From Deltaproteobacteria bacterium (GTDB lineage Bacteria; Myxococcota_A; JAADFL01), in the NCBI GenBank assembly GCA_013152945.1, contig JAADFL010000087.1, forward strand, positions 45,731-109,730: a DNA stretch of 64,000 nucleotides, written 5' to 3'. Under the pieces are notes generated by a model, which ran no database searches, was not told where the DNA came from, and worked only from the letters and a program-made list of their open reading frames with translations. The position numbers and the translations under genes are program-made. Shown in pieces: positions 1,171-25,137 of this stretch (its first letter is position 1; the number at the start of each line of letters is the position of its first letter).

Positions 1171-1473
1171 ATGGCGGTCAAGAAACGGGAAGTTTTCAAG
1201 AGAAAGGCTGCCGTGCTCAAGGCAATCGCCAACGAGTCCAGGCTCGTAATCATCGACCGCCTCGGCAAAGGAGAATGCTCTGTGGGTGAACTGACAAGAT
1301 TGGTGGGCTCGGACCAGTCCACTGTATCCAAGCACCTTGCAATACTTCGCGCCAATGGAATCGTCAACGACAGACGGGACAAGAACATGGTGTACTATAG
1401 TCTTCAAACACCTTGTGTATTGGATTTCTTTAAATGCACACTCAAGGTCATTCAGGAAAGGCAAAAAATCTAG
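1171..1473 (+). CDS. ArsR/SmtB-family winged-helix regulator
   Basis: A 100-residue, single-domain winged-helix repressor. The helix-turn-helix region (about residues 35-60, including SDQSTVSKHLAIL) and the beta-wing (RRDKNMVYYSL) are clear. A cysteine in KGECSVGEL occupies the position near helix alpha-3 where metal-sensing ArsR proteins have ELCVCEL, but the second cysteine is absent. Two further cysteines occur near the C-terminus (TPCVLDFFKC), so metal or redox sensing is possible but not shown. The ATG is preceded by AGGGGGT. Its stop lies 4 bases before the next gene, so it probably heads the operon that follows and may repress it together with itself. Confidence 0.88.
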   Translation: MAVKKREVFKRKAAVLKAIANESRLVIIDRLGKGECSVGELTRLVGSDQSTVSKHLAILRANGIVNDRRDKNMVYYSLQTPCVLDFFKCTLKVIQERQKI

Positions 1474-1477
1474 CGGT

Positions 1478-2575
1478 ATGCGGCGAAATTGCCTTGCTTT
1501 TTTCCTGGGAGTTTTCGCCGCATTGGTTCTTGGCGAGCTTGTATGCAGACTGGCAGAGGATCGGCGAATATCGCAAGTTCTGATTTTTCCAAGAGGCAAT
1601 GCAAACTATGAACTAACGCGTCCTGTGCCGGGCGACCTGGTGTACGAATTCGTTCCGGGGCGTTGTTTGAACGGCCTTTGCACAAATTCCCTCGGCCTGC
1701 GGGACCTTGAAAGAAGGATCGTCAAACCAGGCGGGCTCAAGCGCATACTTTGTGTCGGTGACAGTATTACCATGGGTGGTTCCATGGCCGGAAATGTTCC
1801 ATTGCTCCAGACATGGCCGTTGGTATTGGAGCGGCTGTTGGACAACCCCGACGGGCAGAGAATCGAATCGTGGAATGCGGGTTTTTCCGGGTACAACCTG
1901 GTCCAATATGCGGCTTTCCTTAAACGCCGGGCAAAAAAAATCAAGCCCGATGCCATTATACTCGGCCTGTGCTTGAACGATCTCTCGGTACATCAGGTCA
2001 TACATAAATACCGGGATAGGTTCGAAATAGAGTTTCAACATCGCGAACAGGCGGTTGTCTTCGACCTGGGGCACGGCGCGAATCAGTGGCTGCTCGGGCA
2101 CAGCGCCATGTGGCGCGTCGTGAACAGGGGGGGCGCATCAATGATGGAGCCAAAATACGGCTTGCTCGATCCGGACGGATCGAGAGCGGAAGCAGCTATG
2201 AAAAAAATCAAGCATCTTGCCGAAGACATGAATATTCCCTTGTTGGCGCTTATCTTCCCCAGGCTGGACGATGAAGGTTACAGTACGCCTGAAACAAACC
2301 GCGACCACAGGAGATTGTCTTTGTTGGTGAAGCGCGAGCATGTTCAAGCCGTGGAGCTGTATCACCTGTTTACACGATATCCTGTTGGAAGTTTGAGAAT
2401 GGATCCAAGAGACAAGGGCCACCCGAATGCACTCGGTCATTGTCTTGCGGCAATAGGTGCATACCGCAGGTTGCTTGATATGAAAATACCCTGGATTTCT
2501 TCCAAGGAACACAGAGCAGGGGAGTGCGTTGACATACTTGCGCCGGATAATCGATTCTCTTCCTCTTTTTTTTGA
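1478..2575 (+). CDS. SGNH/GDSL-family hydrolase with N-terminal membrane anchor
   Basis: A 365-residue protein with a hydrophobic N-terminus (about residues 5-20) that would act as signal peptide or membrane anchor, followed by an SGNH esterase/acyltransferase domain. Block I is VGDSITMGG (nucleophile serine), block III is GLCLNDL (catalytic-fold asparagine), and block V is DKGHPN with the catalytic Asp/His. The family includes lipid and polysaccharide O-acylesterases and O-acyltransferases; the substrate cannot be told here. The frame is open upstream into the ArsR gene, but the ATG at 1478, just after the ArsR stop, gives the sensible N-terminus. The ribosome-binding site is weak (AGGAAAG rather far upstream), so translational coupling is likely. 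Confidence 0.82.
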   Translation: MRRNCLAFFLGVFAALVLGELVCRLAEDRRISQVLIFPRGNANYELTRPVPGDLVYEFVPGRCLNGLCTNSLGLRDLERRIVKPGGLKRILCVGDSITMGGSMAGNVPLLQTWPLVLERLLDNPDGQRIESWNAGFSGYNLVQYAAFLKRRAKKIKPDAIILGLCLNDLSVHQVIHKYRDRFEIEFQHREQAVVFDLGHGANQWLLGHSAMWRVVNRGGASMMEPKYGLLDPDGSRAEAAMKKIKHLAEDMNIPLLALIFPRLDDEGYSTPETNRDHRRLSLLVKREHVQAVELYHLFTRYPVGSLRMDPRDKGHPNALGHCLAAIGAYRRLLDMKIPWISSKEHRAGECVDILAPDNRFSSSFF

Positions 2576-2682
2576 ATCATAGTTTTCTTTCACTTTTGAT
2601 TGCCCGCGCAGGCAAGATATGCCATGCTAGCGAATTGCATTGTACAGATACCACGGGACAGTGGAGTAAAGAGACAATCGAG

Positions 2683-3687
2683 TTGAGCGTAAAACACAAT
2701 GATCAGATTGCGAACCTGGCAAAACGAGCCAGGATAGTCGCTGCATTGAGGAGATTTCTCGACGACCGGGGGTACCTTGAGGTTGAGACGCCTTGTATTG
2801 TACAGGCACCGGGGCAAGACCCTCACTTGCGTTGTTTCCAGGTATTGGATGCCCGCGGAAATCCGGTGGGATATCTTAGGACATCTCCGGAACATGCAGC
2901 AAAAAGACTGCTCTCAAGGGGATTCCCCAGGCTTTATGAACTGTCCAAAGTTTTCAGGGATGAGCCCCGCTCCATGTTCCACCAGCCGGAATTCACCTTG
3001 CTGGAATTTTATGGTACAGGCCTTGGAACCAATGAACTTAAGGAAGAAATGACTGCACTTATTAGGGCCGCAGCCGGTATTACGGCAAGGGATATGAAAA
3101 TACAAGTGGACGATATCTCCCTGGATTTTTCCGCAAGGCCCCTTACCATCAGCATTGGAGAAATACTGGAAGAAGAGCTGGGCATAGACTGGAGGTCACA
3201 CTCGACCGCAGAAGACCTCATGGAGGCCGCCAAACCCCGGGGTATTGACTTCGACGGAATACAGTGGACTTTCGACCAGGTGTTTTCAAAACTCATGCTG
3301 GAGGTAGTGGAGCCATCTCTGCCTTTGGACAGAATGGTCTTTCTCGACGGCTTTCCTGCAAGCCAGGCCTCTTACGCCAAGCTCCTGGCCACAGACCCGG
3401 GAATAGCCGACAGGTTCGAACTCTACATAGGCGGTATAGAATTGGCCAACGCATTTTCCGAATTGAACGATCCCGTGGAACAACGCAGGCGTTTCGAAAA
3501 ATGGATCGAGGAAAGAAGAAACGAGGGGGGGCCGGATTACCCGATCGATGAGGATTTTCTGGATGAACTCTCGAACATGCCCAATGCTGCCGGAGCAGCC
3601 CTGGGTATAGACAGGTTGGTCATGTTGCTTACAGGTAAAAGAGATCTGGTAGAGGTTATTTCCTTTCCCGCCGGATCAAATGGCTGA
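2683..3687 (+). CDS. epmA: EpmA-like elongation factor P lysine ligase (class II LysRS paralogue)
   Basis: A truncated class II lysyl-tRNA synthetase homologue without the anticodon-binding domain. The E. coli family member attaches (R)-beta-lysine to EF-P. Class II motif 1 (RRFLDDRGYLEVETP), motif 2 (FRDEPRSMFHQPEFTLLEF) and motif 3 (AAGAALGIDRLVML) are visible, as is the family stretch FPASQASYAKL and the IGGIELANAFSEL segment. From a TTG at 2683 the protein has 334 residues, close to the usual length. A longer frame opens with TTG at 2572, overlapping the previous stop, but those 37 residues are unlike the family and have no ribosome-binding site. Neither EF-P nor the EpmB aminomutase is in this window. 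The preferred start is an inference. Confidence 0.85.
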   Translation: MSVKHNDQIANLAKRARIVAALRRFLDDRGYLEVETPCIVQAPGQDPHLRCFQVLDARGNPVGYLRTSPEHAAKRLLSRGFPRLYELSKVFRDEPRSMFHQPEFTLLEFYGTGLGTNELKEEMTALIRAAAGITARDMKIQVDDISLDFSARPLTISIGEILEEELGIDWRSHSTAEDLMEAAKPRGIDFDGIQWTFDQVFSKLMLEVVEPSLPLDRMVFLDGFPASQASYAKLLATDPGIADRFELYIGGIELANAFSELNDPVEQRRRFEKWIEERRNEGGPDYPIDEDFLDELSNMPNAAGAALGIDRLVMLLTGKRDLVEVISFPAGSNG

Positions 3688-8918: not shown

Positions 8919-8938
8919 AAACCGGGCAGCCGGTTTTT
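8919..8938 (+). terminator. Rho-independent terminator
   Basis: A 7-base-pair stem (AAACCGG / CCGGTTT) with a GCAG loop is followed by a run of T. It lies about 80 bases after the lysine-rich gene and abuts the stop codon of the converging GH2 gene, so it may serve both directions. Confidence 0.6.
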
Positions 8939-11900
8939 ATTTCGATTTACTCGCCGGCATAATTATCTTTTTTGACCGGTCCACAGTAACTTCCCAGGAG
9001 ACATCGGGAGTCTTGACTGCATATACTCCAGGCTCCAAACCGGAAAAATGAACCAGGCTGTTTTCACCGGGCGAGGCTGCACGGGATATTGGAGCGCCAA
9101 ATCGCCTCTGAAGCTCTATTTCACCTCCAGGCGTAGATTCGATATCAAGATCGAATCTTGGTATCGGAGAAATGCCGGGCTCATTGTGAAGAAATTCATT
9201 TTCATCATTTATAATCAAAAAATCATGCCAATTATGAGAAAGCAGGTTTCCCGCTGCATCCAGTACATCCAAATCGATATGAACATACATAGGAGATTGC
9301 AGATCGCTTTTCCCGTTTCTCATGTTCAACCGGCACACCTGCCTTATTGAATCAGGCTCTATATCCAATTCCAATTTCCCCTTGAAGACTTGTCGCCTGT
9401 CTTCGAAGCCGCCTCCAAGGACGATTATCTCATTTTTCAGAGACTTTGGATTCCAGAATAAGTCCTTGAAGCCTTCTGCAAAGGAAGAGGGATCGGATCT
9501 TAATAAAAACCCTGAACTTTTTTCTTTGACTGTATAAATCAAGAGTGCATCCTTTATTTCGCGGTGTAAATCATTTATCAGGAGCACTGGAATATCATCG
9601 GCGACTTTGGGATTCATTACCGCATGCCTGTGGGGCACAAAGGCCAGGATAGGCTGGTTGGCCGTGGCGGCCCACCTGTAGCCGGGCATGGAGCGGCCGT
9701 CATCGTCCATTGTGGCCCATGTTACCGATGGCCAATAACTGTTCAAGAGGAAATAATGCGAACTCCCGGTGGGCGCATAGCGCCTGGCACGCAAGTACTC
9801 TATGTTGTATTTCAGGACTAACGCCTGATACATCTGTGATGCAAAAGCCCAGTCGCCAAAACATGAATAGTCGGATGTTCTTCCAATTCTTGCCGATAGG
9901 TAAGGCAGTTGAAGACACCTGTACATCCAAGCCCTTGCCGCATCATCGTTAGTAACGGGCCACATTTTTGCACCGTGTTCCAAAATGAATTCTTCTGCCT
10001 TGAATGGAACAGCCTGGGCCCCGTACTCTATCGGCAATGGAAATTTTGCGCCAAAGATATCCGTATACGATCCATTATACCAGCCATAGTAGACCGTCGA
10101 TTCAGTACCCTCGTTTCCAGTCTTCTGAATCGGCCTGCTACGCTCGATTGATACGGCAGTCTCGTACAGCTCCTGATCGAGCTCTTTGTTACCCGTCCCA
10201 TCCATGAGTATAGGCATTTGGTCTGTACTATCGAATATGATATCCGGAACTTTCCTGCCGGTATCCAAGGGCACATTGAAAGTGAAAAACGGCTCGTCAT
10301 GCAAAGACCACCACAGAATGCTCGGATGGCTTTCATAGAGCAATAATGCCTCGGCCAGCATGCGTTTCATCACGCTCATATTATTCGTCAAGCCGGGATC
10401 GCCGCATGCCCGCTTATGATTTGCTACCGAGTATTCCCATACCAGCGTGAATTCCTGAAACACGAGTATGCCCATTTCGTCGCAAAGCCTGTAGAAGGAC
10501 CTGGGCTGGAGATGATCCAGAACAATAATGCCGTCCAGGTTGGATTCAATTACCGACTGCAACAATCTTTGATGCAGTGAATGGCCTGATTCTGCGATGT
10601 ATATTGTGGGAATCAAATTCGCGCCTCTAATGAACATTCTCTTGCCGTTAACCTTCCACACCATGGCCCTGCCATGTTTCTTCAGCTCGATTTTGCGAAA
10701 GCCTATTTTCTCGCTTGCTTGATCCATGATTCGATCATGACCATGAACCTCGACTTGCAGTTTATATAGTGAAGGTTTCCCGAGCTCCGGATGGCTTGCC
10801 GGCCACCATAGCCTGGGGCTTGGCACCTCCAGTACCACATTCGCAGACCAAGGTCCGGGAGGTACGGAAAGTCTTAATGCCTTTTGGGAAAAATGCTCGA
10901 AGCCGACACCGGACAACCGGATGGCCAATGTCACATCCATTGTTTTCATCGTATGATTGAAAAGATAGGCGCCGATTACAAGTTTGCCCTTTGAAAAATC
11001 ATCAGCGACAAGGGGTCTGATTCGTAACCACTCGATCGAAACCTCCCCGGTAATTATCATCTCGACCGGCTGCACGATACCACCGGTCCCAAGCGACTGG
11101 GCTTCTTTTGCTCCAAGGTTTATAGAGCCGGGCCTTGTATCGTGATAATTCAGGATGCCCTTTATCCAAATCTTTTCACAAGCCGGAAGGTATCCGTGCT
11201 TTTGAGCGGATTCCATGGCATAGTCCCATGGGTTCTGTACCCTTACTGACAAAACGTTTTCTCCGGGTCTCAACTTGTTGGTGACATCAAAGCTGAACGG
11301 ATTGAAATATCCTTCGTGTTCACCGGCATTGTCCAGCGTGTTCGAATTCAAATAGACCTTTGCGAAATAATCGATTCCGTGAAACAAAAGGTAGGCCCTT
11401 TGATTCGGGTCGAGTTTATCCATTGTGAAGCGGCGCCTGTACCACACGGGATAGAACACATTTTTTAATGCAGGATCCTGACGGCCGTAGTTACCGGGCA
11501 CATTTAGCCTTTTCCAGGAAGAGTCATCAATATCCATGGAATGAAAACCAAGGCTTTCACCTTTGTCATCCGGGTCAGGGGATATTGCCCATTTCCCTGA
11601 CAGATCGATGCATTTCCTGGCCCTGGGGCCAAGGCGGTTTGGAAACGCACAAGGCATAGTCTCGAGATTTTGGGCAATGGCAAGCGACTCGAACAACGAA
11701 TTGGGCATGACCGAAAAGTCCGCAACCGCCCTGACGACCAACTCGGACGCCTCGAATCCCGCAGCCTTGGCGAAAATCCTAACCAATGGTGAATGTGGTG
11801 TAAGGATGAATTTCGCCCATGTGCCGTCGAATCCGGTGCGCTTGAGTATTCCTTTACCATCGGCTACCTGCACTTGTGCAGCGGCCCCGGGGCTCACCGC

Positions 11901-11960
11901 GAAACCAATGGATTGTCCAGGGACATAGGTTGAAGAATCCGACTTTAGCAAGGTTTTCAT
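8937..11960 (-). CDS. Glycoside hydrolase family 2 enzyme (beta-mannosidase/exo-glucosaminidase type)
   Basis: A 1007-residue glycosidase. After an extra N-terminal region of about 110 residues comes the GH2 jelly-roll (about 115-300, with GKWAISPDP and VPGNYG...NVFYPVWYRRRF), an immunoglobulin-like domain, and the TIM barrel (about 440-800). The acid/base Glu lies in WWSLHDEP (Glu556) and the nucleophile Glu in PIEYGAQAVP (Glu645), which resembles the SEFGxQ pattern of mannosidases more than that of LacZ. No clear signal peptide is seen. The ATG at 11960 has GGAGGG four bases upstream; a longer frame from 12068 lacks one. Exact substrate is unknown. It stands alone and divergent from trmH. 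Confidence 0.87.
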   Translation of the reverse strand: MKTLLKSDSSTYVPGQSIGFAVSPGAAAQVQVADGKGILKRTGFDGTWAKFILTPHSPLVRIFAKAAGFEASELVVRAVADFSVMPNSLFESLAIAQNLETMPCAFPNRLGPRARKCIDLSGKWAISPDPDDKGESLGFHSMDIDDSSWKRLNVPGNYGRQDPALKNVFYPVWYRRRFTMDKLDPNQRAYLLFHGIDYFAKVYLNSNTLDNAGEHEGYFNPFSFDVTNKLRPGENVLSVRVQNPWDYAMESAQKHGYLPACEKIWIKGILNYHDTRPGSINLGAKEAQSLGTGGIVQPVEMIITGEVSIEWLRIRPLVADDFSKGKLVIGAYLFNHTMKTMDVTLAIRLSGVGFEHFSQKALRLSVPPGPWSANVVLEVPSPRLWWPASHPELGKPSLYKLQVEVHGHDRIMDQASEKIGFRKIELKKHGRAMVWKVNGKRMFIRGANLIPTIYIAESGHSLHQRLLQSVIESNLDGIIVLDHLQPRSFYRLCDEMGILVFQEFTLVWEYSVANHKRACGDPGLTNNMSVMKRMLAEALLLYESHPSILWWSLHDEPFFTFNVPLDTGRKVPDIIFDSTDQMPILMDGTGNKELDQELYETAVSIERSRPIQKTGNEGTESTVYYGWYNGSYTDIFGAKFPLPIEYGAQAVPFKAEEFILEHGAKMWPVTNDDAARAWMYRCLQLPYLSARIGRTSDYSCFGDWAFASQMYQALVLKYNIEYLRARRYAPTGSSHYFLLNSYWPSVTWATMDDDGRSMPGYRWAATANQPILAFVPHRHAVMNPKVADDIPVLLINDLHREIKDALLIYTVKEKSSGFLLRSDPSSFAEGFKDLFWNPKSLKNEIIVLGGGFEDRRQVFKGKLELDIEPDSIRQVCRLNMRNGKSDLQSPMYVHIDLDVLDAAGNLLSHNWHDFLIINDENEFLHNEPGISPIPRFDLDIESTPGGEIELQRRFGAPISRAASPGENSLVHFSGLEPGVYAVKTPDVSWEVTVDRSKKIIMPASKSK

Positions 11961-12145
11961 GCAGCCCTCCAAACCCTCGATCAATGGATCAATAATAGTA
12001 GCCGGCCATGACAAATACCAACCTCTATTCCGGCTCGACCGGGCTAATTGAGATTCCGGGGTCCTCAATCATGCCTTTTACTTTGGATGTGCCTCATGTT
12101 TTCAGACTTGATAATACCCTGACTTTAGGCTAAACGCCCAATGCT

Positions 12146-12806: not shown

Positions 12807-13268
12807 CTAACTTTCCAAAGTCCTGGACAACGAGTCCACCCTACTCTCGATTCGCTTCAGGCTTTTTTCGTTCATCAAGGTTGCCAGGGACAGGTCTTTC
12901 AAAGTTACTTCAATCAAAAGGCTCAATAACCTGTAAACCAGTCTGGCGGGGCAATCCTTGTTCTTGTCGCAAACATCCTCGTCCAGCACGCAGTCCACCA
13001 ATGCAATTGGACCAATCTCTGCCTTGAGTATGGAAGCCAGGCTTATTTCTCTTGGAGATTTTCCAAGTACATAACCGCCCCCGGGGCCCTTGATTCCCCT
13101 TATCAAACCTGCATTCTTGAGTGGAAGAACGATCTGGTCCAGGTACCGTCTCGAAATATCGGTACGTTCCGCCACGTTTTCCAGTTTTACAGGGGAACCT
13201 TTCTTCGAATGCAATCCAATGTCCAAAATCATGCGAAGTGCGTACCTTGCCCTGGTGGAAATCTTCAT
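12807..13268 (-). CDS. Rrf2-family regulator with IscR-like cysteines
   Basis: A 153-residue winged-helix regulator. The start MKISTRARYALRMI and the helix-turn-helix with recognition stretch ISRRYLDQIVLPLKNAGLI and wing GPGGGYVLGK are typical. Three cysteines at 93, 100 and 106 (C-x6-C-x5-C) nearly match the C-x5-C-x5-C of IscR, which ligate a [2Fe-2S] cluster, so iron-sulphur or redox sensing is a reasonable inference. No isc or suf gene is nearby. A good ribosome-binding site (GGAGGCG) precedes the ATG. It lies just downstream of the receiver-kinase gene and may be co-transcribed with it. Confidence 0.88.
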   Translation of the reverse strand: MKISTRARYALRMILDIGLHSKKGSPVKLENVAERTDISRRYLDQIVLPLKNAGLIRGIKGPGGGYVLGKSPREISLASILKAEIGPIALVDCVLDEDVCDKNKDCPARLVYRLLSLLIEVTLKDLSLATLMNEKSLKRIESRVDSLSRTLES

Positions 13269-13300: not shown

Positions 13301-14431
13301 TCACGGCTTTTGCGGAAACTTCGCAATAAAGGTGGCCCCACCGCCCGGGGTGTCTTCGAAAGTCAAAGTTCCACCATGTGCATTCATTACCTGTTTGCAA
13401 ATACTCAAGCCCAAACCGGTTCCCTCTTGATCCTTTGTGGAATAGAAAGGTTCAAACAACTTTTCCGCCGCCTTGTCAGGGATACCTACTCCGTGATCGA
13501 TAATTCTGTACTCCAGGGTGTCTCCGGTTATCTCTATCCTTACTATTATCTTGGACCCGGCCTCGCTGGCCTGGGCTGCATTCTTGAGGAGGTTCAGCAG
13601 AAGATGATTTACCTGTTGAGAATCAAGTAACCAGCTCTTCAGTTCACCCTTCTCGAACTCAATTTCGATATCCCTGAAGGATGGATGGTATCTGCATACT
13701 CGAAGCACTTCTTCCACCGGCCCGGCAGGTGATATCCTCGACGGCATGAAAGGCAGTGAAGCACCCCTGGCAAAATCTCTGATATGTGTGGCCATTCCTC
13801 CCAGGGTTTGAACCTGTCTCTCCAGGGCCTTTAAGTCTTGAATCTCGTTTTCCCTGGTTCTTGTCAGCATATTGTTCATTCCCAGAAGGACAACCAGATG
13901 GTTGTTCATCTCGTGGGCCATCTCTGCAGCAAACCTGCCTACTGCTGCAAGCTTTTCTCGTTTAATAAGTTCTTCCTGGGCCTCTTCCAGTTGCCTCGTC
14001 TTCTTGAGTAAATCCTTGTTCGTATCAGCCAGGTCGGCGGCCAGCTTGCCTTTACTCGCGCGAAGATCTTTCCATTCCAAGGCCTGTTTTATGGTAAGCT
14101 TCATGTCGTCTATATCCCAGGGCTTGATAATGTAACGGTAGACTCTTCCCTCGTTGATGGCCTTCAACATTGCTTCAAAATCCGCATAGGCGGAAAGAAT
14201 AAGCCGGACTATCTCCGGATATAATTCTTTTACCCTGGTCAAAAGTTCGACGCCGGTCATTCCGGGCATACGCTGGTCCGCCACCACCAGTTCGATATTT
14301 TCTTTTTCGAGCAATGACAGTGCAGCTTCTCCGGTCTCGGCTAACAGCACATTGTATTCATTTTCCAACAGCATTGCGATGGGATCCAGGCTGTCTCTCT
14401 CGTCGTCTACTAACAAGATGCTGCGTTTCAT
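13301..14431 (-). CDS. Response receiver - histidine kinase hybrid
   Basis: A 376-residue soluble protein. An N-terminal receiver domain (about 1-120; phospho-acceptor Asp52 in VVADQRMPG, Lys103) is followed by a coiled linker and a histidine kinase core with His173 in AEMAHEMNNHL, and an ATP-binding domain (about 260-376) with GVGIPDKA and GTGLGLSICKQV. The receiver segment resembles those next to RpfG/HD-GYP proteins. Such receiver-kinase proteins accept a phosphate and relay it. The ATG has GGGAGACACGG upstream. It lies 131 bases after the double-kinase gene on the same strand. Confidence 0.92.
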   Translation of the reverse strand: MKRSILLVDDERDSLDPIAMLLENEYNVLLAETGEAALSLLEKENIELVVADQRMPGMTGVELLTRVKELYPEIVRLILSAYADFEAMLKAINEGRVYRYIIKPWDIDDMKLTIKQALEWKDLRASKGKLAADLADTNKDLLKKTRQLEEAQEELIKREKLAAVGRFAAEMAHEMNNHLVVLLGMNNMLTRTRENEIQDLKALERQVQTLGGMATHIRDFARGASLPFMPSRISPAGPVEEVLRVCRYHPSFRDIEIEFEKGELKSWLLDSQQVNHLLLNLLKNAAQASEAGSKIIVRIEITGDTLEYRIIDHGVGIPDKAAEKLFEPFYSTKDQEGTGLGLSICKQVMNAHGGTLTFEDTPGGGATFIAKFPQKP

Positions 14432-14495
14432 AATCCGTGTCTCCCTGGTCTATATATCACGGTTTACTTATATAGCTCTTACCCCAATAAGTCTT

Positions 14496-14523
14496 AACAT
14501 ACAAGCCCTTGGTTATCTGCCAA
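14496..14523 (-). promoter_or_regulatory. Candidate promoter for the receiver-kinase gene
   Basis: On the minus strand TTGGCA (14518-14523) is followed after 16 bases by TATGTT (14496-14501), in the 131-base gap upstream of the receiver-kinase start at 14431. It suggests that this gene and the Rrf2 gene can be expressed apart from the upstream locus. Confidence 0.35.
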
Positions 14524-14562
14524 GGAAACACCGGGTTTGCCTTGACTCTGGAACAACAAGGT

Positions 14563-17500
14563 CTAGGAGGCAATCGGCAAAACGACACGTATCTTGGTTC
14601 CTGCGCCTTGTGAACTCTCCAAATCAATGTCTCCACCCAAATCCTGTACTATCCTTTTACACAAAGACAATCCAATCCCCATGCCCTTGCCCGGTTCCTT
14701 GGTTGTAAAGAAGAGATCAAAAACTCTTTCCCGGTTCTCCTCGGGTATTCCAGGGCCGTTGTCTTGGACCAACAAGACAGCCCGGCCGGATTCCGCTCTT
14801 GTCGAAACTAAAATCTCGCCGCCTTCTTCAACCGCTTGCAAAGAATTCTCAACCAGGTTTATCACGGTCTGCCGCAATTCCTCACGCGGTCCCAATACCG
14901 TGGCATTGGATCCGATATCCACTACGAGGTTCACTTTTTTATCAGATGAACCGCAAATAAGGTCGGTACTCGATTTAACCAACTTGTCCCAGTCGATTTT
15001 CGACCATTTCCCCTGCATTTTGCCCTGGCTGTATTGCTGTAAGCTGGTCACTACTTGATTTATCCTGGTCAGTGCCCTCTGTGCCACATTTTCCATCCTT
15101 GTCATGTCACTGGATTCTTTATCATCAGCCATATGTCGCACGAGGCTTACAAGCGCCCTGTGAGCGTTTTGCAACTGGTGAGCTGCATTCCTTAATTCAT
15201 GAGCCATGCCCGAAAGCAGGGTCTCCAGTGACGCGGCTCGCCTCCTTGCAGCCACCTCGGTTCGGCGAAACCTGTTTTTCAGTAGATTTTCAACGCCGGC
15301 CAAGAGTTCCTTCTTCTTGAAGGGCTTGCCGATGTACAGATCCGCGCCTGCCTTGTGTCCTTGTATCTTGTGTTCCGTTTCCTGCCTGGCGGTCAACAAC
15401 ACTACCGGAATATCCTGCAATTTTGGTTCCCGCTTGATTCTTTGACAAAGTTCGATTCCGCTGATCTTCGGCATCATGATGTCCGCAATGACCAAATCGT
15501 GTCTATGCTTTACCAGTAACTCGAGGGCCTTTTCTCCATCCTGGGCCGACCAGACATCGTACTGATCCCGTAAAATATTGTTCAGGTATTTCAAAATTTG
15601 CGGATTGTCGTCTACCACCAGTAATCTTGCGGCCTTGGGCTGGATTCCATCCTGCCTGGGGACCAACCTGCGTTCTGTTGCTTCCTTCAAATCCAGAAAC
15701 CGGTATTCCGGCCTGGCCAGTATCTCATCACTCCACTCTTTTAGTTCACTATCTGCCTCCCGCCTGGCCATAACCACGGGCTCTTGCCTCACCCTTTTCT
15801 CGATACTCTCCTGGGGAACCTGATCGGCCCTCAAGGGCAGCTCTACATCGAATCTGCTTCCCTTGCCGAGTTCACTCTCTACCGTAATGTTTCCACAGTG
15901 TAGTTCAATCAACTCCTTTACCAATGCAAGGCCCAGACCGCTTCCATAGTGCCTCTTTGTACTTGAATCGTCTACCTGGTGGAACCTGTTGAATACCAGG
16001 TCAATCTCATTGTCCGGTATTCCTATTCCAGTATCTTCCACCCCAACAAGCACTGCCCCATGTTCGGCTTTTTCCTGCACTCTTACTTTAATCGAACCGC
16101 CCGGTTCTGTGAATTTAAGGGCATTGGATAAGAGGTTTACGAAAACTTTTTCCAACTTGGTCTCATCTGCTTCAATGACGATTTCGCCTGTTGCATCACA
16201 GGATAAGTCGATATTCTTACGTAACGCCAACGGCCTGGAAAAATCGGATACTTTTCGAACCAAACCGCAGACATCAAACAGATCGAGTTTAAGCTTCAGC
16301 CTTGCCTCTTCGAGTCTGCTCAAGTCCAATAAGTCGTCTATCAATTTGAGCAGCTTCAAGGCGCTCATACGCACACCTTCCAACTGTTCTTTCAATGTGT
16401 CGTCCAGGGTTGTGGATGCGTCCTCCAGCATGGATTCCACCGGGACCAGGATTAATGTCAACGGTGTTCGTAGCTCGTGACTGATGTTTGCAAAAAACCT
16501 GCTTTTCAGCTTGTCCAGATCTCTTAACCGTTCATTGGCCTGGGACAGATCCCTGGTTCTTTCATTTACACGGCTTTCAAGTTCCCTGGCCAACTTTTCA
16601 AGGTCTCTTCTCTGCCTGTCCACGGTTCCAAACAACACCGCATTGGATAATGCAATCGAGCCACGGCTCGACAAGAGTTCCAGGTAATCCAGATCTTCCT
16701 TGGAATAGGGCCGCAGGTTCTTCTTTTCACCCAAGGTGATATAGCCCAACACACGCCCTGCATGGAAAAGAACCGAAAAAACACTGCTCCCTGTTTCTTC
16801 AAGGAATCTTGCAGCCGCGTCACGTACAATCGCCAATCTTTGATCAGCCGCCATGTGACCTTTTTCAATCACTATGCCCATTTTTCCGGCCTTCTCAAGC
16901 AAATCAGAGCCGGGACCGTGCGAGTTCAAAGCCGGTTCGGGTATCGTTCCCTTGACCTCAACCGCAAGAGTTTCCCCGGAATCCGGCAGGTACTCGATTT
17001 TTGTCCACTCGGGCATTACACCTTGGTAGATTACGTGGACAAGCCTTTTTACCACCTGCTTTTTGTCCGACAGCACGGTCATATCTTTTTCGAATTCGTC
17101 CAGCAGGCTTTGCCTGTCGAACGCTCGCCTTAAAAATAACCGGTCCAACCTCGGTTTCACGGTTCGAATGTACGCATAAAAGACCACGAAAGTCGTCGAA
17201 AGGAGCAATACCACCGTAAACCTGCTCATCCCGGTTCCTATGTACGAATAGAGCCAAAGTATTCCATACAGCGGGGCCATGAAAATGGACAATGCCAGCA
17301 CCCAGCCCAGGGTTCTATGAACTACTGTACGTATTTCCCACAGACGGTGTTTCACGATTGCATAGGTAATAATTAACGGGAATACAGGCAGGAACAGGTG
17401 GGGCAGGGTTGCAACAAGGCTTCTGGTATTGAAAACAATTGGAAATACCGAGCCTGTGGTGGAAAAAAAAGCAATGCCGATGCCCAACAAGACGTACGCC

Positions 17501-18024
17501 GCCTGGCTTTTCTTTACGCCTTTTTCCTGCTTGTACGCCCTGATTGCCATGGTCAGCGAAACCGCCCATGTGTAGAGCAGGTAAAGCAGGTACAAAGGCA
17601 TAAGCCTGCCCGGAACCGGTGAATTCGCTGAAAATGCCGAAATTTCCACCCCTTTAAACAACTGGTTCGTGAAAATGAACATGGGAACCAGTATTGCAGC
17701 CCAAACAAGGCCAATGTAATTGAGAGCCCTTTGGCCTAGAACAGGATTGCCCAGTACAAAGGTGAATCGCATGAAAAAGAAGAGCGCCAGGACTGCACTT
17801 GTCATTCCAATCCTGTTGGCCCAAAGTCCTGTGGCCGGATCCCCGGTCAGGGTCGCGACTGCGACAAAGAGCCCGAACAGCCCTGCAAAAAGGCAGAAAA
17901 TACTCCACCTTTTTAAAAGAGATGATTCACTCCCCCTCTTTAGAACGACCCCGGACAGCAAGATGAATATGGCCCCGGCTATGATATTACTAAGACTGAA
18001 TACTGCTCTTCCGGCCGGTACCAT
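14563..18024 (-). CDS. Membrane-bound kinase-receiver-kinase hybrid sensor
   Basis: A 1153-residue protein with an unusual order. Residues 1-285 hold about eight hydrophobic segments (a 7TM-type sensor module). Then come a GAF-like domain (about 305-465), a coiled coil (465-505), a first kinase core (His516 in NISHELRTPL; ATPase motifs VEDTGIGIP and GSGLGLALVKEL), a receiver domain (about 800-915; Asp848 in VIADIMMP), and a second kinase core (His942 in GMAHELRN; ATPase motifs QDNGPGIPEE and GMGIGLSLCKRI). Both kinases look intact. The ATG is 2 bases after the stop of the radical SAM gene, so it is translationally coupled. Sensing of a membrane or lipid signal is an inference. Confidence 0.9.
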   Translation of the reverse strand: MVPAGRAVFSLSNIIAGAIFILLSGVVLKRGSESSLLKRWSIFCLFAGLFGLFVAVATLTGDPATGLWANRIGMTSAVLALFFFMRFTFVLGNPVLGQRALNYIGLVWAAILVPMFIFTNQLFKGVEISAFSANSPVPGRLMPLYLLYLLYTWAVSLTMAIRAYKQEKGVKKSQAAYVLLGIGIAFFSTTGSVFPIVFNTRSLVATLPHLFLPVFPLIITYAIVKHRLWEIRTVVHRTLGWVLALSIFMAPLYGILWLYSYIGTGMSRFTVVLLLSTTFVVFYAYIRTVKPRLDRLFLRRAFDRQSLLDEFEKDMTVLSDKKQVVKRLVHVIYQGVMPEWTKIEYLPDSGETLAVEVKGTIPEPALNSHGPGSDLLEKAGKMGIVIEKGHMAADQRLAIVRDAAARFLEETGSSVFSVLFHAGRVLGYITLGEKKNLRPYSKEDLDYLELLSSRGSIALSNAVLFGTVDRQRRDLEKLARELESRVNERTRDLSQANERLRDLDKLKSRFFANISHELRTPLTLILVPVESMLEDASTTLDDTLKEQLEGVRMSALKLLKLIDDLLDLSRLEEARLKLKLDLFDVCGLVRKVSDFSRPLALRKNIDLSCDATGEIVIEADETKLEKVFVNLLSNALKFTEPGGSIKVRVQEKAEHGAVLVGVEDTGIGIPDNEIDLVFNRFHQVDDSSTKRHYGSGLGLALVKELIELHCGNITVESELGKGSRFDVELPLRADQVPQESIEKRVRQEPVVMARREADSELKEWSDEILARPEYRFLDLKEATERRLVPRQDGIQPKAARLLVVDDNPQILKYLNNILRDQYDVWSAQDGEKALELLVKHRHDLVIADIMMPKISGIELCQRIKREPKLQDIPVVLLTARQETEHKIQGHKAGADLYIGKPFKKKELLAGVENLLKNRFRRTEVAARRRAASLETLLSGMAHELRNAAHQLQNAHRALVSLVRHMADDKESSDMTRMENVAQRALTRINQVVTSLQQYSQGKMQGKWSKIDWDKLVKSSTDLICGSSDKKVNLVVDIGSNATVLGPREELRQTVINLVENSLQAVEEGGEILVSTRAESGRAVLLVQDNGPGIPEENRERVFDLFFTTKEPGKGMGIGLSLCKRIVQDLGGDIDLESSQGAGTKIRVVLPIAS

Positions 18025-18026
18025 CT

Positions 18027-19660
18027 CTATTGAGTCAACCTTTTGTTCGTCTTTTCAACGAATTTTTCAAGCTCACCTGCATCCATGACGAAAAACAAGC
18101 GTTGCATAAGGTTCCTGAAGGAAGAAAGCTCCATATCCAGCACCTTGGCCAGGGCGACCATCTCGTCGGGTACATTTATGACCACGCCGGCATCGGAGAG
18201 TTCATTCTGGAATCCGGCATTCATACCAGCAAATTCCTTGAACCCGCGACCGTCCAGGAGATATGGAGCCGGTTGCCACAAAGGGGGCGGCACGATATGG
18301 CGAATCTTCAAAGTTGCCAGAAAATGGTTGTAACGCTCCTGATCCACGAGTAATTCGAAGCCGAATTGCTCTCTCTCCTCCCACCACAATGTTCTTGGTA
18401 TCAATCCCGGAAACTGGGTTACCACGCAGGCATGGCCGTCTTTGCAAAGATCCATGGCGGCTTGCTTGTTCACTTTCAGACCCTCGCTGCTTTGTCCGGG
18501 AACAGGCACGATAAGAGAGATTACAGGCACTATTTCGGCGGCCTTCAAGTCGGTTATTGCCTGGCGCGCCTGCTGTGGGTTCAATCTCTTACCCAGTTTG
18601 GCAGAGTCGGGTTCGAAAAAGGATTCCACTCCAAGGAAGAGGGAGTCGAAACCCAGGTCGCAAAGGCCCTTGACCGTGTTTTCGGAAATAGCCCCGGGGT
18701 GACCGAACATAGATGCAGGCCTTCTCTCATTCCTTCGGATTCGCTTAGCAGGTCCCTGTAGAACTTGGGAGGTGTAAAGGAACCTCCCAGGCGAAAACCG
18801 ACGGTATGGGTCTTTGCCTTTATTTCAGAAATTTCGGAGATTACTCTTTTCCCGGATTTGATTCGCCAACGGCTCCCGCTCGCATCCCTGTGAACGCAGA
18901 AAGCGCATCCCATCGGGCACCCGCGACTCTCGTCCAGGACAAAGAACTTGATTTGCTGGTCTCCCTCGAGGCTCGGATATACGTCCGGGTCGTAACAGGG
19001 TAATGGCAAGGTGTTTAAATCCAAGGTCATGGCCCGCCGTGTGCGTTTGATCGTACCGTCTTCCTTCAGTATGAGATTCGGAACGTCATTGAGATCGGCC
19101 TTTCCCTCGGCAAATGCCGCAAGCAATAGTATCGATTCTTCAGCCTCGCCGTCCACAAGGGCATCGAAGGCGCCGCCAAGTTCATAAACACCCTTCCTTG
19201 CGTAGAGTACAGCCGGGCCCCCGCCGTAAATCTTGAGGTTGGGAAACCTCCTTTTCAGCCCATCTGCTATACTCGAGCATCCGATCAGTCCGTCACCGCT
19301 CCAGAGTTTGAAGCCCACGAAATCGCTTCCCTGTGATTGTACTTCCCTGGAAATATCTTCGAGCAGTTCCTTTGCGAACAGATCAAGACTTTTATCCAGG
19401 TCAAGGCTCATTTCCACCACTTTGTCCGTCACCCGGCTCAAAGGGCCCTGCTTTAGTTGTTTCAAGATTCGTGACAGCTCTTCGCTTCTTCTTGGAGAGT
19501 ACAGGCGCCTTGCCGTGCCCACGGTGTTGTAGTCCAGTACCTTTACTTCATGTCCGGCGGAAATAAGAACACCGGCAAGGCTTGCAAGGCCGTTATCCGG
19601 AAACAGGGATGACACGGTAATAGGATAGCCCGCATAGGAAACAAGTAACCCTCTAGCCAT
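18027..19660 (-). pseudogene. B12-binding-type radical SAM protein, split by a frameshift
   Basis: Two overlapping frames together encode one radical SAM protein. The first part (19660 down to about 18700) has an N-terminal cobalamin-binding-like Rossmann domain (about 1-160, with GLASLAGVLISAGHEVKVLDY) and the cluster motif CPMGCAFC. The second part, beginning near 18710, carries the rest of the barrel (GFDSLFLGVESFFEPDSAKL) to the stop at 18027. One base appears to be missing near 18690-18760. It may be a real mutation, a sequencing error or a programmed shift. The gene overlaps the PilZ gene upstream and lies 2 bases from the double kinase downstream. The classical DxHxxG cobalamin motif is not seen. 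Substrate unknown. Confidence 0.8.
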
Positions 19661-21746
19661 GCATCATCCCCAAAAATTCCTGGATATACTCGAGGTAGGA
19701 AGGCAGAATATCTCTTCTCGCCAGCCAGCGGATGACATCCGTAACATATTTAAACCCCAAGCTCTTGAGCACATTGTCAGGTTCTCCTGCAAAGGATCCC
19801 AGGAGCATGAATTCGCTCTTTTCCTGCTTTGTATAGTAAGCGACGGCCCGTTCCAGCAGGGCGCCCTTTATCTCTTCATCATGCCTTGCCTCATCGTCCG
19901 GGTACACGAACCAACACCGGTTGAAAAGGCTGAAAACATTGAGTCCCTGGTCTCCACATTCCGCGATCAAGCCTGCCCTTAAATCACCGTTTTCCCGGGC
20001 GACAAAAATTTTTCTTGAACGCTCGTAACCGAGATCCAAGCACCATCTTGAAAAGTCTTTCAGGTCTATTTGTTCCCTGTGATAGCAAAATGCGTCGTAC
20101 TCCAACTCGGGAAGCTGCAATTTGAGGTGTTCACTAAGCAGGTCCAGCATCTCAAAGTTTGCTTCCCTTACGCTTATGCTCTTCCTCCACTTTCCCGATT
20201 TCTGGAGCGACTTTTCGGTAATGCACTTGTATACCTTGTACCCGTCGTACACGAAATCCAAGGGCTGCTTGTATTGCCGCAGGAACCTGCCGTACATCAT
20301 TTCATTCCAAGCTTTTGCGGCGTTTACATAGATGACGAAGAATTCGGAGTCGGCAAGGTGTTCCAGCAGGTACGCATTGCCTGAATATAATTTCCTCGCA
20401 ATCTCCAACATGTCCTTTCTGCTCTTCTTCCTGATAGCCTTGGCCACACCCAGGTGGTGGACTATCCATGTCCCTGGATAGAGAAGGTTGGCTGCAAGGG
20501 TGGCTCCCGGATCGTCCTGGTGAAAGTAGAGCATGTACCTCGCAACAGGCGTGTTGTTCGATTGCCTGGTCCAGGAAACCATGAATCTTTTCTTCAATAA
20601 TGGGACAAGATCTTGCGTAACTTCTTCCAGGTATCCAGATGCCTTGAGGGCCGTCCATGCCGAATCCACATCCTCGATACCTCCGAGTTTCAGGCCGGGA
20701 TGCAATTCCTGAAACACGAAACGTTTCCAGGTCTCTGCCTGGGCTTGGTTTTGGAAATTCAATATCTCAAGGCCGCACGAATATGTTTTTTCGTCACGAT
20801 CGATGCTGCGGACCATTGTTTCCCCGATCGACACGCCCATCGGGTGCTCGATTCGTACGTTTGATATTTTTTCACCCGGGAACAATATATCCTTGTCCAG
20901 GTCAATGGGAAATGCCAACCCATCCCCGCTGATTTCCCTTGCTTCGTGGACTACCAAGCGTCCTTGAAGCCTGGGGTGTGGAAAAGAAACCTTTACCCGG
21001 CCCTTTTCGCCTACAGGAAGACGCAATGATCTTCTAAGCCCTGTCCGTTGAAGCTTTTCAGGAAGGGTAAAGAGAAAAACCGGCCCTTCCCTTTTCCAAA
21101 ATCTCGTATTGAACAGCAACAGGCAGTTTGCAGCAGGCATGGCCATGAAGTAATCCCTGCCGTTCTCGAACACCTCTTGTTCGCCTGTTAATTCGATTGC
21201 CATCAATTCCCTTGCAGCCCTGACGACTATGCCTCTCAACATGGCCTGACACGGGAGTTCCAGGTCACCCATAAAAACCTTCATTTTCCTGCGGCAGGCA
21301 ATGCCGTAATAGAGAAGAACTTTGCGCAGGGAATGGCGCATGACCTCGGCCCGAATCGGAGAAGGATGATCCACCAGCCTTGCAAGTGCGTGTTCCTGTT
21401 CCAGGAAGAGCCCGGTCAGGTAGCGGGACATGGTCCGCAGTGGCGCCAATCCGTCGACTTCGAGCCTGACCCCGAGTTTTGTTACATTACCCTTATCGAA
21501 AATCCTGGTCGGACGGAGACGAACCTCGAATGGCGGTTCATCTATGAGTGTAACTCTGGCCCTTACCTCGTCTCCTGCAAAGGTGGCGCCGGATTGTACA
21601 AGAAGGCCCCCGCCGCTTGCACTCAAATCTTCCAACTTAAGTCCTGGGCCGCCGGATGGGCCCTCTATGAATGCCGTGTTGTCCTTTACAGTAAGGCGAT
21701 AAGAATCCCGCCGCTCGTCAATATCCTGTTTTTCGCGTTTTTTCAT
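19653..21746 (-). CDS. PilZ-domain protein with GNAT-like C-terminal half
   Basis: A protein of about 697 residues. The N-terminal PilZ domain has RDSYR (Arg13/Arg17) and DLSASGG (Asp40, Ser42, Gly45), the two motifs that bind cyclic-di-GMP. A second, weaker PilZ-like segment (about 215-330, RRSLRL and EISGDGLAF) follows. The C-terminal half (about 360-697) looks like two acyltransferase-like (GNAT) folds, including a segment ending LGFKYVTDVIRWL. This suggests an N-acyltransferase-type enzyme controlled by c-di-GMP, which is inference. The ATG at 21746 is chosen; an upstream in-frame TTG at 21782 lacks a ribosome-binding site. Its stop overlaps the radical SAM start. Confidence 0.75.
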   Translation of the reverse strand: MKKREKQDIDERRDSYRLTVKDNTAFIEGPSGGPGLKLEDLSASGGGLLVQSGATFAGDEVRARVTLIDEPPFEVRLRPTRIFDKGNVTKLGVRLEVDGLAPLRTMSRYLTGLFLEQEHALARLVDHPSPIRAEVMRHSLRKVLLYYGIACRRKMKVFMGDLELPCQAMLRGIVVRAARELMAIELTGEQEVFENGRDYFMAMPAANCLLLFNTRFWKREGPVFLFTLPEKLQRTGLRRSLRLPVGEKGRVKVSFPHPRLQGRLVVHEAREISGDGLAFPIDLDKDILFPGEKISNVRIEHPMGVSIGETMVRSIDRDEKTYSCGLEILNFQNQAQAETWKRFVFQELHPGLKLGGIEDVDSAWTALKASGYLEEVTQDLVPLLKKRFMVSWTRQSNNTPVARYMLYFHQDDPGATLAANLLYPGTWIVHHLGVAKAIRKKSRKDMLEIARKLYSGNAYLLEHLADSEFFVIYVNAAKAWNEMMYGRFLRQYKQPLDFVYDGYKVYKCITEKSLQKSGKWRKSISVREANFEMLDLLSEHLKLQLPELEYDAFCYHREQIDLKDFSRWCLDLGYERSRKIFVARENGDLRAGLIAECGDQGLNVFSLFNRCWFVYPDDEARHDEEIKGALLERAVAYYTKQEKSEFMLLGSFAGEPDNVLKSLGFKYVTDVIRWLARRDILPSYLEYIQEFLGMMHG

Positions 21747-21876: not shown

Positions 21877-23373
21877 ATGGCTTGCTTTTCCAGATATTTT
21901 TGCCTTGCATTGTTGTGTTCATGCTTTTATTCCCACAGGCTTTCGGCAACTGAAATTGGATTTGATTTCGACGCGTACCTTGGAGCCAGGGTAAGTCTGG
22001 ACAGGGGAGGGCAAGGACTGTATCAATACCCGGATTCCAGAGGCGCCACGACAGAGCTTAGCCCGTATTTTTCCGTATATCCATCCCTGAGCATGGACGC
22101 CGATATTTCGGACACATTGGAAATCCTGGCCAGGTGGGAACCGGGAGAACTTGCATACTCGGACTCGAAGTTGACGCTCGGGGGTAGAAAGCCCTTGAAC
22201 ATTCTGCGGGAGGAATGGGGCTTCAGGGAACTCAAGGCAAGATTGCACAGTGGAAGTGGAATCGAGCTTACTTTGGGTAAACAGGATTTGGAACTTGCAC
22301 ACGGCCTTATCTACGACAATGCCGGTCTGGGCATGACCATGGTCATCGGTCCGACAGATACGGGCGATATGCTCATCTCATTTGAATCCTGGGCTGTTTT
22401 TCCCGACGGCGCATTCATGCCATACAGAACCGAGCAGGGTTACGAGTGCAACTTCGAGACAGGAAACTGCACATCAGGTGACATGAGAATTCCTTCAAAG
22501 AAATCATGGCTTGTATCAAGCCTGTTGAGGCTGGAGCCGTCCCCGTTCGAATCCGTGGAGATTTTTGGAGCTGTTTTCAGCGACCGTGGAGGGGAGTTCA
22601 ACTCTTTGTTGAAGCCCATGCTGGAAGAACAGGCCATGGTAGGCCTTGCCCAACACCCTTACCTAAAAGATATAGCGGTCATGTACCTTGAAGGCAACCA
22701 GGAACCCTCAAGAGGAGACATGCTGTACCTCGGGGCCTCGGGCAAACAGGTACTGGGATTCGGAGTTCTTCGATACAGCCTTGTCATGGGCGCAGGCGCT
22801 ATCGAGATCCATCTTCCAAAGCTTGTCCGGGGACCAAAATTGGTTACAGTAAAGGCCCGGACCAAGGTGACGGGATATGCCCTTGATTTCTCCGCTGAAT
22901 TCCCGTTGTTCGAGTGGCTCGGGATTACGCCCTTCTTTACTTTCATGAGCGGCGATACCGGGGCTTTCTCTGCAAAAGGCACCGAGAACCTGGGCGTGTT
23001 CATCGCGCCTTCAGCCAGGGTTTACAGGACAAACCTTTTTTTCGAAGGTGGGCTGAACCAGTCCTACCTTACAAGGCAAGCGACTGCCGCGGGACTTGCA
23101 GGCAAAGGGGTTGTGGCAGGCGGCCTTTCTCTTGAAGCATCATTTTTCGAAGAACTGGATCTGGATGTTAAAGCTGCTGCGTTGGGAGCGCACAGGCCGT
23201 CGGCCATTACAGGGGGAAGGTATTATGGAACCGAGTTGGATGTGGAGCTTCACTATTCTCCAATTCCCGGACTGGAGCTGGGCCTGGAAACAGACCTGCT
23301 GGTGGAAGGTCGGTTCCTTGAGAAACCGGCCAATGTATTCAGGGTCATGCTCGGCATGGATTGGAATCTCTGA
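21877..23373 (+). CDS. Predicted outer-membrane beta-barrel protein
   Basis: A 498-residue protein with a hydrophobic N-terminal signal (cleavage probably near LSA-TE). The remainder alternates polar and hydrophobic residues in short strands separated by glycine- and aspartate-rich turns (for example GIELTLGKQDLELAHGLIY), as in porins and alginate-export-type barrels. It ends in MLGMDWNL, with the usual aromatic/hydrophobic C-terminal strand though Leu replaces the common final Phe. No named family is certain. It is divergent from the PilZ gene and sits upstream of the sigma-factor cluster. The ribosome-binding site is weak. Confidence 0.65.
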   Translation: MACFSRYFCLALLCSCFYSHRLSATEIGFDFDAYLGARVSLDRGGQGLYQYPDSRGATTELSPYFSVYPSLSMDADISDTLEILARWEPGELAYSDSKLTLGGRKPLNILREEWGFRELKARLHSGSGIELTLGKQDLELAHGLIYDNAGLGMTMVIGPTDTGDMLISFESWAVFPDGAFMPYRTEQGYECNFETGNCTSGDMRIPSKKSWLVSSLLRLEPSPFESVEIFGAVFSDRGGEFNSLLKPMLEEQAMVGLAQHPYLKDIAVMYLEGNQEPSRGDMLYLGASGKQVLGFGVLRYSLVMGAGAIEIHLPKLVRGPKLVTVKARTKVTGYALDFSAEFPLFEWLGITPFFTFMSGDTGAFSAKGTENLGVFIAPSARVYRTNLFFEGGLNQSYLTRQATAAGLAGKGVVAGGLSLEASFFEELDLDVKAAALGAHRPSAITGGRYYGTELDVELHYSPIPGLELGLETDLLVEGRFLEKPANVFRVMLGMDWNL

Positions 23374-24154: not shown

Positions 24155-24646
24155 ATGGATTGTAAGTCGGTCGAACAATTACTCGCAGACTGGTCGCTTG
24201 GACGATTGGATGAAGAGACCTTTACGCAAATCGAGACTCACATCTCGAAATGCAAATCATGCCGGGCTTTGGCGGAAAAGGAAACGGCTTTCAACCGTTT
24301 ACTCTCGAGTTACAGATCGGATCCGCCTGGACCGCAATTCGACCGAATACTATTTAAAAAGATTAATAAGGCCGGAAAAACAAGAGACGTAAAAAAACGG
24401 AATCGCTTCGGAGCATTGCGCAAGCCACTAATCGCAGCAACCCTTGCTTCTGCTGCAGCGGCTGCAGCAATATTCTTCTTCATGCAAAACTCGGGCATTC
24501 AGGGCCATCCATCCATGGTGGAACTCGACATCTCGTTGTCAAGGGACCTTGACATGTACGAAAACCTGGATGTCATCGAGGTCCTGGACGCACTCCAGGA
24601 TATCCAGGCCGCAAGTGCTCAAGAACAAGGAGGTCAACCGACATGA
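24155..24646 (+). CDS. Zinc-finger anti-sigma factor with transmembrane segment
   Basis: A 163-residue protein. The N-terminal zinc-binding anti-sigma domain has Cys3 and H29-x3-C33-x2-C36 (HISKCKSC), the ZAS motif that binds the sigma factor. One hydrophobic, alanine-rich segment (about residues 92-112) anchors it in the inner membrane. The periplasmic tail is short and ends with an acidic, leucine-rich stretch (LDMYENLDVIEVLDALQ). Overlap of its TGA with the next ATG (ATGA) shows translational coupling. The sigma factor lies just upstream. Confidence 0.92.
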   Translation: MDCKSVEQLLADWSLGRLDEETFTQIETHISKCKSCRALAEKETAFNRLLSSYRSDPPGPQFDRILFKKINKAGKTRDVKKRNRFGALRKPLIAATLASAAAAAAIFFFMQNSGIQGHPSMVELDISLSRDLDMYENLDVIEVLDALQDIQAASAQEQGGQPT

Positions 24647-25137
24647 ATACGAAAAAACTGGTAACAGGAATATCATCGGCAGCCGTCTTACTCGGTTGTT
24701 TGCTTGTGCCGGTGAACGTCCTTGCAAAAGATGCCGCAGGTACCTGGAATTCCTTATCTCCAAAAGAAAAACAGGAAATCAAGGATCGTTGGCAAAGGTT
24801 CAAGACTCTGCCCGCAGCAAGACAAGAGCTGATGATTGAAAGGTACAAGAAGTTCAAGTCCCTGCCCCGGACCGAGCAGGACAGGATCAGGGCCATGTAC
24901 CGTAGATTCAAGTCGATGCCGATAGCGGAACAGGAAAGAATCCGAAAAAATTACAAAAAATTCAAACGCCTTTCGCCAATAGAAAGAAACCGGCTCATCC
25001 GGGTCTTGAGACGTATCAAGAGAATGCCGCCGGAAAGGAGAAAAAGGCTCCTGAAAAAGCTCAGGCGATGGAGATCGCTTTCTCCGGAAAAACGGCGGGA
25101 AATAATTCAAAGACTAAGGCGCAGGAGATCGCGATGA
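24643..25137 (+). CDS. DUF3106-like secreted repeat protein
   Basis: A 164-residue protein with a signal peptide (about 1-29, ending near VLA-KD), then five or more copies of an approximately 22-residue unit of the form SLSPxERxxIxxxYKKFKxL, rich in Arg and Lys toward the C-terminus. The repeats match DUF3106, which is often found next to anti-sigma factors in Proteobacteria. A periplasmic role, perhaps in sensing by the anti-sigma factor, is an inference. It overlaps the anti-sigma stop and its own TGA overlaps the next ATG. Confidence 0.82.
   Translation: MNTKKLVTGISSAAVLLGCLLVPVNVLAKDAAGTWNSLSPKEKQEIKDRWQRFKTLPAARQELMIERYKKFKSLPRTEQDRIRAMYRRFKSMPIAEQERIRKNYKKFKRLSPIERNRLIRVLRRIKRMPPERRKRLLKKLRRWRSLSPEKRREIIQRLRRRRSR

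Follow-up and report, generated by a model that had tools for sequence, protein, structure and literature searches.

What is encoded by a locus in which PilZ domains, an acetyltransferase-like half, a radical SAM enzyme and two histidine kinases lie side by side, and do these genes belong together? Such a locus is found in the window, the 64,000-nucleotide stretch of contig JAADFL010000087.1 that was analysed here as a whole. A first-pass annotation made from the letters alone had placed four same-strand genes at 13301-21746. Sequence reading and Pfam bear this out, with all four genes on the minus strand. The features are as follows:

19653-21746, minus strand: protein of 697 aa with the order PilZ, PilZN/PilZ and tandem GNAT, PixB-like by sequence; ATG at 21746.
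21402-21716, minus strand: first PilZ domain of this protein (aa ~11-115) with R13xxxR17 and D40LSASGG; Pfam PilZ when scanned alone, motifs kept in genome G423 (locus L170).
20688-21386, minus strand: YcgR_N-like (PilZN) and second PilZ domains (aa 121-353) with R238xxxR242 and E-I-S-x-x-G; Pfam PilZ and fold match.
19674-20699, minus strand: predicted tandem GNAT-fold half (aa 350-691) without the canonical acetyl-CoA P-loop; fold matches and motif scan.
18581-19660, minus strand: 5′ frame of the B12-binding radical SAM gene (B12 domain and CxxxCxxC), with true coding to about 18710-18730; Pfam and alignment.
18027-18710, minus strand: 3′ part of the B12-binding radical SAM gene in the -1 frame, with the remaining radical SAM barrel and the C-terminus.
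18695-18730, minus strand: radical SAM frameshift point; sequence and alignment with intact relatives.
14563-18024, minus strand: membrane hybrid kinase HK-REC-HK, 1153 aa; Pfam, TM prediction and alignment with the L170 kinase.
13301-14431, minus strand: receiver-histidine kinase, 376 aa; Pfam. A like gene adjoins other PilZ-GNAT genes.

The spacing had been read correctly. The PilZ gene overlaps the start of the radical SAM gene by 8 bp (19653-19660), the end of the radical SAM gene is followed after a gap of 2 bp by the double kinase, whose length is exactly the 1153 residues given before, and the receiver-kinase comes last. The overlap holds, but the radical SAM gene is interrupted by a -1 frameshift. 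The receiver-kinase gene is followed after 32 bp, in the same direction, by a gene for an Rrf2-family (Fe-S type) regulator (12807-13268, minus). It may be co-transcribed with the four genes, and might be connected to the radical SAM enzyme through Fe-S. Divergent from the PilZ gene is the gene of an exported, barrel-like 498-aa protein (21877-23373, plus), which has no Pfam or NCBIfam match. A highly repetitive, basic DUF3106 protein (24643-25137, plus) is encoded after genes for a sigma-factor-like protein and a small putative anti-sigma factor. On the other side, the gene of a 1043-aa glycoside hydrolase family 2 protein (8937-12068, minus) adjoins a SpoU-type RNA methylase gene.

Both motifs named for the PilZ protein are present, RDSYR at aa 13-17 and DLSASGG at aa 40-46, and each of the two PilZ domains has an RxxxR motif. 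The second domain (aa 238-346) matches Pfam PilZ with an E value of 5e-6. The first is matched only when scanned alone (E 0.028, 100 of 102 positions). AlphaFold2 models were obtained for the whole protein (mean pLDDT 69, with the C-terminal half better than the rest) and for the C-terminal half alone (pLDDT 81, pTM 0.84), and both were compared with the PDB. In VIA-align, modelled residues 121-353 aligned with MrkH bound to c-di-GMP (Z 14.5, 205 residues, rmsd 5.0) and YcgR bound to c-di-GMP (Z 13.3). The predicted PilZN-PilZ fold is thus shared with these two proteins (Z 13-14.5), which differ in having neither a GNAT half nor a kinase partner.

Neither Pfam nor NCBIfam gave any match that would assign the C-terminal half as an acetyltransferase, and the PilZ-GNAT family profile, searched against PDB sequences, returned only noise. 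A fold comparison was therefore needed. The modelled half (aa ~350-691) aligned with VipF at Z 15.1-15.4 (262-264 residues, rmsd 5.4), with histidine acetyltransferase at Z 14.2-14.3, with clavulanate ORF14 at Z 14.0, and with N-myristoyltransferase (NMT) and mycothiol synthase (MshD) at Z about 12-12.5. Judged by these models, the half is a tandem GNAT fold, in agreement with the GNAT-like label it had been given. The likeness to VipF, ORF14, MshD and histidine acetyltransferase extends over aa 350-680 (Z 12-15) at 9-14% identity, and the window protein differs from them at the cofactor loop. A motif scan found no canonical Q/R-x-x-G-x-G/A pyrophosphate (acetyl-CoA) loop at the expected site in either of its GNAT domains. 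The loop is also absent from almost all of the 26 family members (the window protein and 25 relatives), with two stray matches. Acetyltransferase activity is thus unproven. The earlier reasoning that GNAT enzymes acylate stands as far as the fold goes, but the case for acylation is weaker than was assumed.

The sole tested relative is PixB (MXAN_2604) of Myxococcus xanthus, a PilZ-acetyltransferase protein that binds c-di-GMP (DRaCALA) and controls motility reversals and development (PMC8316039). Its RxxxR motifs were published at R121 and R331 (PMC8316039). In a paralogue from Myxococcus sp. RHSTA-1-4 the RxxxR motifs fall at exactly these residues, R121 and R331, and by motif positions, architecture and genus this protein is taken to be PixB. 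The window protein aligns with it at 20% identity over 476 residues (aa 227-688, BLASTP E 3e-15), and PixB orthologues were recovered by the PilZ-GNAT family profile search. On sequence grounds, the window PilZ protein is a homologue and distant relative of PixB. In both, an acetyltransferase-like half comes after two PilZ domains that bear RxxxR, and the homology runs across the second PilZ domain and the GNAT half. Downstream of the gene, the Myxococcaceae relatives also encode a kinase of this HK-REC-HK type. Besides the low identity, the window protein differs from PixB in lacking the N-terminal receiver-like region and in having a first PilZ motif (DLSASGG) that is closer to the canonical one. 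The surroundings differ as well: a B12-radical SAM gene is found in the window where the Myxococcaceae have a class I methyltransferase, and in the window a receiver-kinase follows the double kinase.

The Myxococcaceae genomes (those of L083, L086, L094 and L097) have four PilZ-GNAT paralogues each, of which, to our knowledge, only PixB has been studied. A Corallococcus protein encoded beside icd/mdh (L083, L086, L094) was rejected as a candidate for PixB because its RxxxR motifs lie at other positions and it belongs to the set of four paralogues. A literature search by locus tag returned nothing on the genes downstream of pixB, and nothing was found that joins PilZ, radical SAM, acetyltransferase and hybrid histidine kinase. 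HfsK of Caulobacter crescentus is likewise a c-di-GMP effector with two tandem GNAT domains; it differs in having no PilZ domain, in being FemX-like and in acting on the holdfast, and c-di-GMP binds it elsewhere and inactivates it (PMC5362036). The canonical PilZ motifs, the modelled fold like that of c-di-GMP-bound MrkH and YcgR and the c-di-GMP-binding homologue make gating of the PilZ-GNAT protein by c-di-GMP plausible. In M. xanthus, the AT domain of PixB alone suffices for reversal control, so such gating is condition-dependent (PMC8316039).

The radical SAM gene has no single open frame and breaks just past '..REGLHL' in the alignment to intact relatives. The gene has Pfam matches to B12-binding (E 1.8e-9, in the 5′ ORF) and Radical_SAM, and the 5′ ORF contains the CxxxCxxC motif as CPMGCAFC. 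The orthologue in G423/L170 spans both halves (36% identity to the 5′ part and 25% to the 3′ part), and the reading frame is intact in it and in stand-alone relatives. By inspection, no classical slippery heptamer was seen at the junction. With this and the intact relatives, programmed -1 frameshifting is disfavoured, and an indel or an assembly error is likelier. The frameshift is either an error of the assembly or a real lesion, in which case the strain may lack a working enzyme. A B12-binding domain and a CxxxCxxC core are also found in ApyD, TIGR03975, BchE, HpnR and other B12-dependent radical SAM enzymes; the window protein differs from these in scoring far below the NCBIfam cut-offs. 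The best weak NCBIfam matches of its relatives are C-methyltransferases and lipid-type B12-rSAMs, again all far below cut-offs. In a small tree, the window and G423 enzymes group with stand-alone f19-family proteins (99/99) in a clade without a name, and the f45 proteins found at PilZ-GNAT loci form a separate clade (100/100). Common descent of all these locus-associated radical SAM enzymes is unsupported.

The double kinase has the order HisKA-HATPase, receiver and second HisKA-HATPase in Pfam, with the motifs SHELRTPL, IADIMMPK and AHELRNA. Ahead of the first kinase core there are 8-9 predicted TM helices and a weak GAF. The 376-aa protein is a Response_reg-HisKA-HATPase. The genome from which the window comes (4.84 Mb) has 113 stretches that match HK or receiver domains; a second kinase of the HK-REC-HK build was not found in it, the next match (131 bits) covering the first kinase only.

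The C-terminal PilZ-GNAT family was recovered from many lineages when 377 genomes of the phylum were searched with a profile. Genes on the same strand and ≤2.5 kb from the PilZ-GNAT gene were counted as neighbours. By this rule a kinase adjoins the PilZ-GNAT gene in 18 of the 34 loci of the phylum sample, or 19/34 if L060 is included, in which the kinase lies 2.9 kb downstream, past two further genes; 11 families are represented. The chance expectation for any kinase neighbour, taken from the 113 stretches in the 4.84-Mb genome, is roughly 4%. The HK-REC-HK type is invariably downstream of the PilZ-GNAT gene. Ten genomes with such a neighbour were checked for their best match to the window kinase, and in nine, all but G009, this match is the neighbour; for G124, a kinase ~5 kb from the PilZ-GNAT gene was counted as such. 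Pairwise distances of the PilZ-GNAT proteins and the kinases are correlated (r 0.90, 0/20000 permutations), and the result is kept when each close group is represented by a single member. The two are co-inherited, and vertical descent alone would also yield this distance correlation.

The annotation had asked for conservation of the neighbourhood in related genomes, and a conserved order was found. Neither of the two outcomes that it had named as contradicting its idea, an unconserved neighbourhood or a C-terminal half lacking a GNAT fold, was obtained. The exact order of the window, PilZ-GNAT, radical SAM and HK-REC-HK, recurs only in G423/L170, with an intact radical SAM gene and without a receiver-kinase after it; the identities to the window proteins are 30% (PilZ-GNAT), 36% (radical SAM) and 42% (HK-REC-HK, over its length). 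Four genomes of family f45 (L060, L166, L168, L169) have the order PilZ-GNAT, AMP ligase, B12-radical SAM and HK-REC-HK. After the double kinase comes a receiver-kinase in L168 and L169, and the L166 contig ends in the kinase. In L060, a REC-GGDEF-EAL gene (1469-3274, minus) replaces the receiver-kinase at the operon end, which provides a direct link to c-di-GMP turnover. The Myxococcaceae pixB loci (L122-L124) read pixB, class I methyltransferase and HK-REC-HK in 3/3. Several relatives, in Polyangium and among the Myxococcaceae paralogues, keep the PilZ-GNAT gene without an adjoining kinase; L048 and L052-L054 (Polyangium) have no kinase neighbour, and the L048 protein has a long N-terminal tail of repeats centred on EPPPSVRFPR. 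In L058 (G257), the gene of a close relative of the window PilZ-GNAT protein precedes, on its own strand, that of a 768-aa protein which on inspection resembles a fusion of ThiF/E1-type and nitroreductase-type parts. TIGR02269, a Myxococcaceae marker, gave no match above cut-off in the phylum sample.

The most variable position is the one between the PilZ-GNAT and double-kinase genes, or just ahead of the PilZ-GNAT gene, which we call the slot. It is empty in, for example, L013, L047, L050 and L051. A class I methyltransferase occupies it in L014, L071, L072 and L122-L124, a B12-radical SAM enzyme in the window and G423/L170, and a B12-radical SAM enzyme with an AMP ligase in L060, L166, L168 and L169. 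Most loci are without radical SAM. The enzyme to which a modification had been ascribed is thus one of several alternatives in the slot, and it is broken in this assembly. Since the f45 radical SAM clade is apart from the window/G423 type, the slot has seemingly been filled more than once. On this small tree, repeated filling would argue for a chemical role of the slot enzyme and against hitch-hiking.

We favour, at slightly better than even confidence, a PixB-type signalling module made of the PilZ-GNAT protein, the double kinase and the slot enzyme. The PilZ part, with two RxxxR domains of which the second has a YcgR_N-like partner, would receive c-di-GMP, and the tandem GNAT-fold half would be the output that acts on or binds a target. 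The membrane HK-REC-HK would sense a separate signal and pass phosphate by way of its own receiver to its second kinase core and on to the free receiver-kinase. As the PilZ-GNAT and kinase genes are co-inherited and probably co-transcribed, the two inputs may be integrated. The slot enzyme, here the B12-dependent radical SAM protein, would modify the same product or target by methylation or a similar alkyl change. The homology to PixB, the folds and motifs, the kinase pairing and the recurrence of the slot carry this reading. Counted against it are the frameshifted radical SAM gene, the missing canonical P-loop, the kinase-less relatives and the condition-dependent c-di-GMP gating.

That four unrelated signalling and enzyme genes became neighbours by chance is close to negligible as an explanation. 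Signalling genes are abundant in this genome, but G423 shares the order, the four f45 genomes have it with a gene added, and a kinase adjoins in 19/34 loci, so a chance neighbourhood was rejected. A possible alternative, to which we give a minority of our confidence, is that the GNAT half is a catalytically dead scaffold that binds a ligand or protein. The PilZ-GNAT protein would then be a c-di-GMP-dependent adaptor that acylates nothing and controls the double kinase or another partner by contact. The loop missing from both GNAT domains in nearly the whole family would fit this, as would the kinase being the most constant partner, but the fold spans whole tandem GNATs at Z 14-15 and biosynthetic-type genes fill the slot in several lineages. 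Some GNAT-fold enzymes, moreover, bind acyl-CoA through divergent loops, for example NMT, which aligns here at Z ~12.5. The adaptor reading also draws on the PixB study, in which the AT domain was removed by domain deletion and no catalytic point mutants were made (PMC8316039).

The scheme of the first-pass annotation, in which the PilZ-GNAT and radical SAM proteins modify an envelope lipid or a metabolite under c-di-GMP gating and the kinases set expression or activity, we consider doubtful. The PilZ motifs and fold point to it, as do the B12-rSAM and AMP-ligase neighbours in the f45 genomes and the weak, far below cut-off matches to C-methyltransferases and lipid-type B12-rSAMs. However, the conserved block contains no lipid, glycan or envelope gene and encodes no DNA-binding output, and radical SAM is missing from most loci. 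Our weights for the module, the scaffold and this modification scheme overlap in part. A synthase-receptor locus appears improbable. There, the AMP ligase and the GNAT, with a methyltransferase or B12-rSAM, would make a small diffusible or membrane signal, with synthesis gated by c-di-GMP and the double kinase as receptor. Just as improbable is a version in which the PilZ-tandem-GNAT protein and a B12-radical SAM enzyme (or an AMP ligase and radical SAM, or a methyltransferase) add acyl and methyl groups to build a small molecule or lipid that the membrane double kinase senses. The types of slot enzyme suit the building of small molecules and the kinase sensor regions differ between lineages; set against this, no product is known, most loci are without slot enzymes, and PixB, as far as published, controls reversals cell-autonomously. 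If it were true, the c-di-GMP level would be turned into a chemical signal and then into a phosphorelay output.

For the module that we favour, the meaning lies mostly with PixB, without which M. xanthus does not form fruiting bodies. The missing acetyl-CoA loop challenges the 'acetyltransferase' label that underlies the current PixB model. Related bacteria keep the PilZ-GNAT protein next to the same kinase, which makes its target easier to test, and the conserved pairing with the double kinase, together with slot enzymes that vary between lineages, offers concrete partners to test for PixB.
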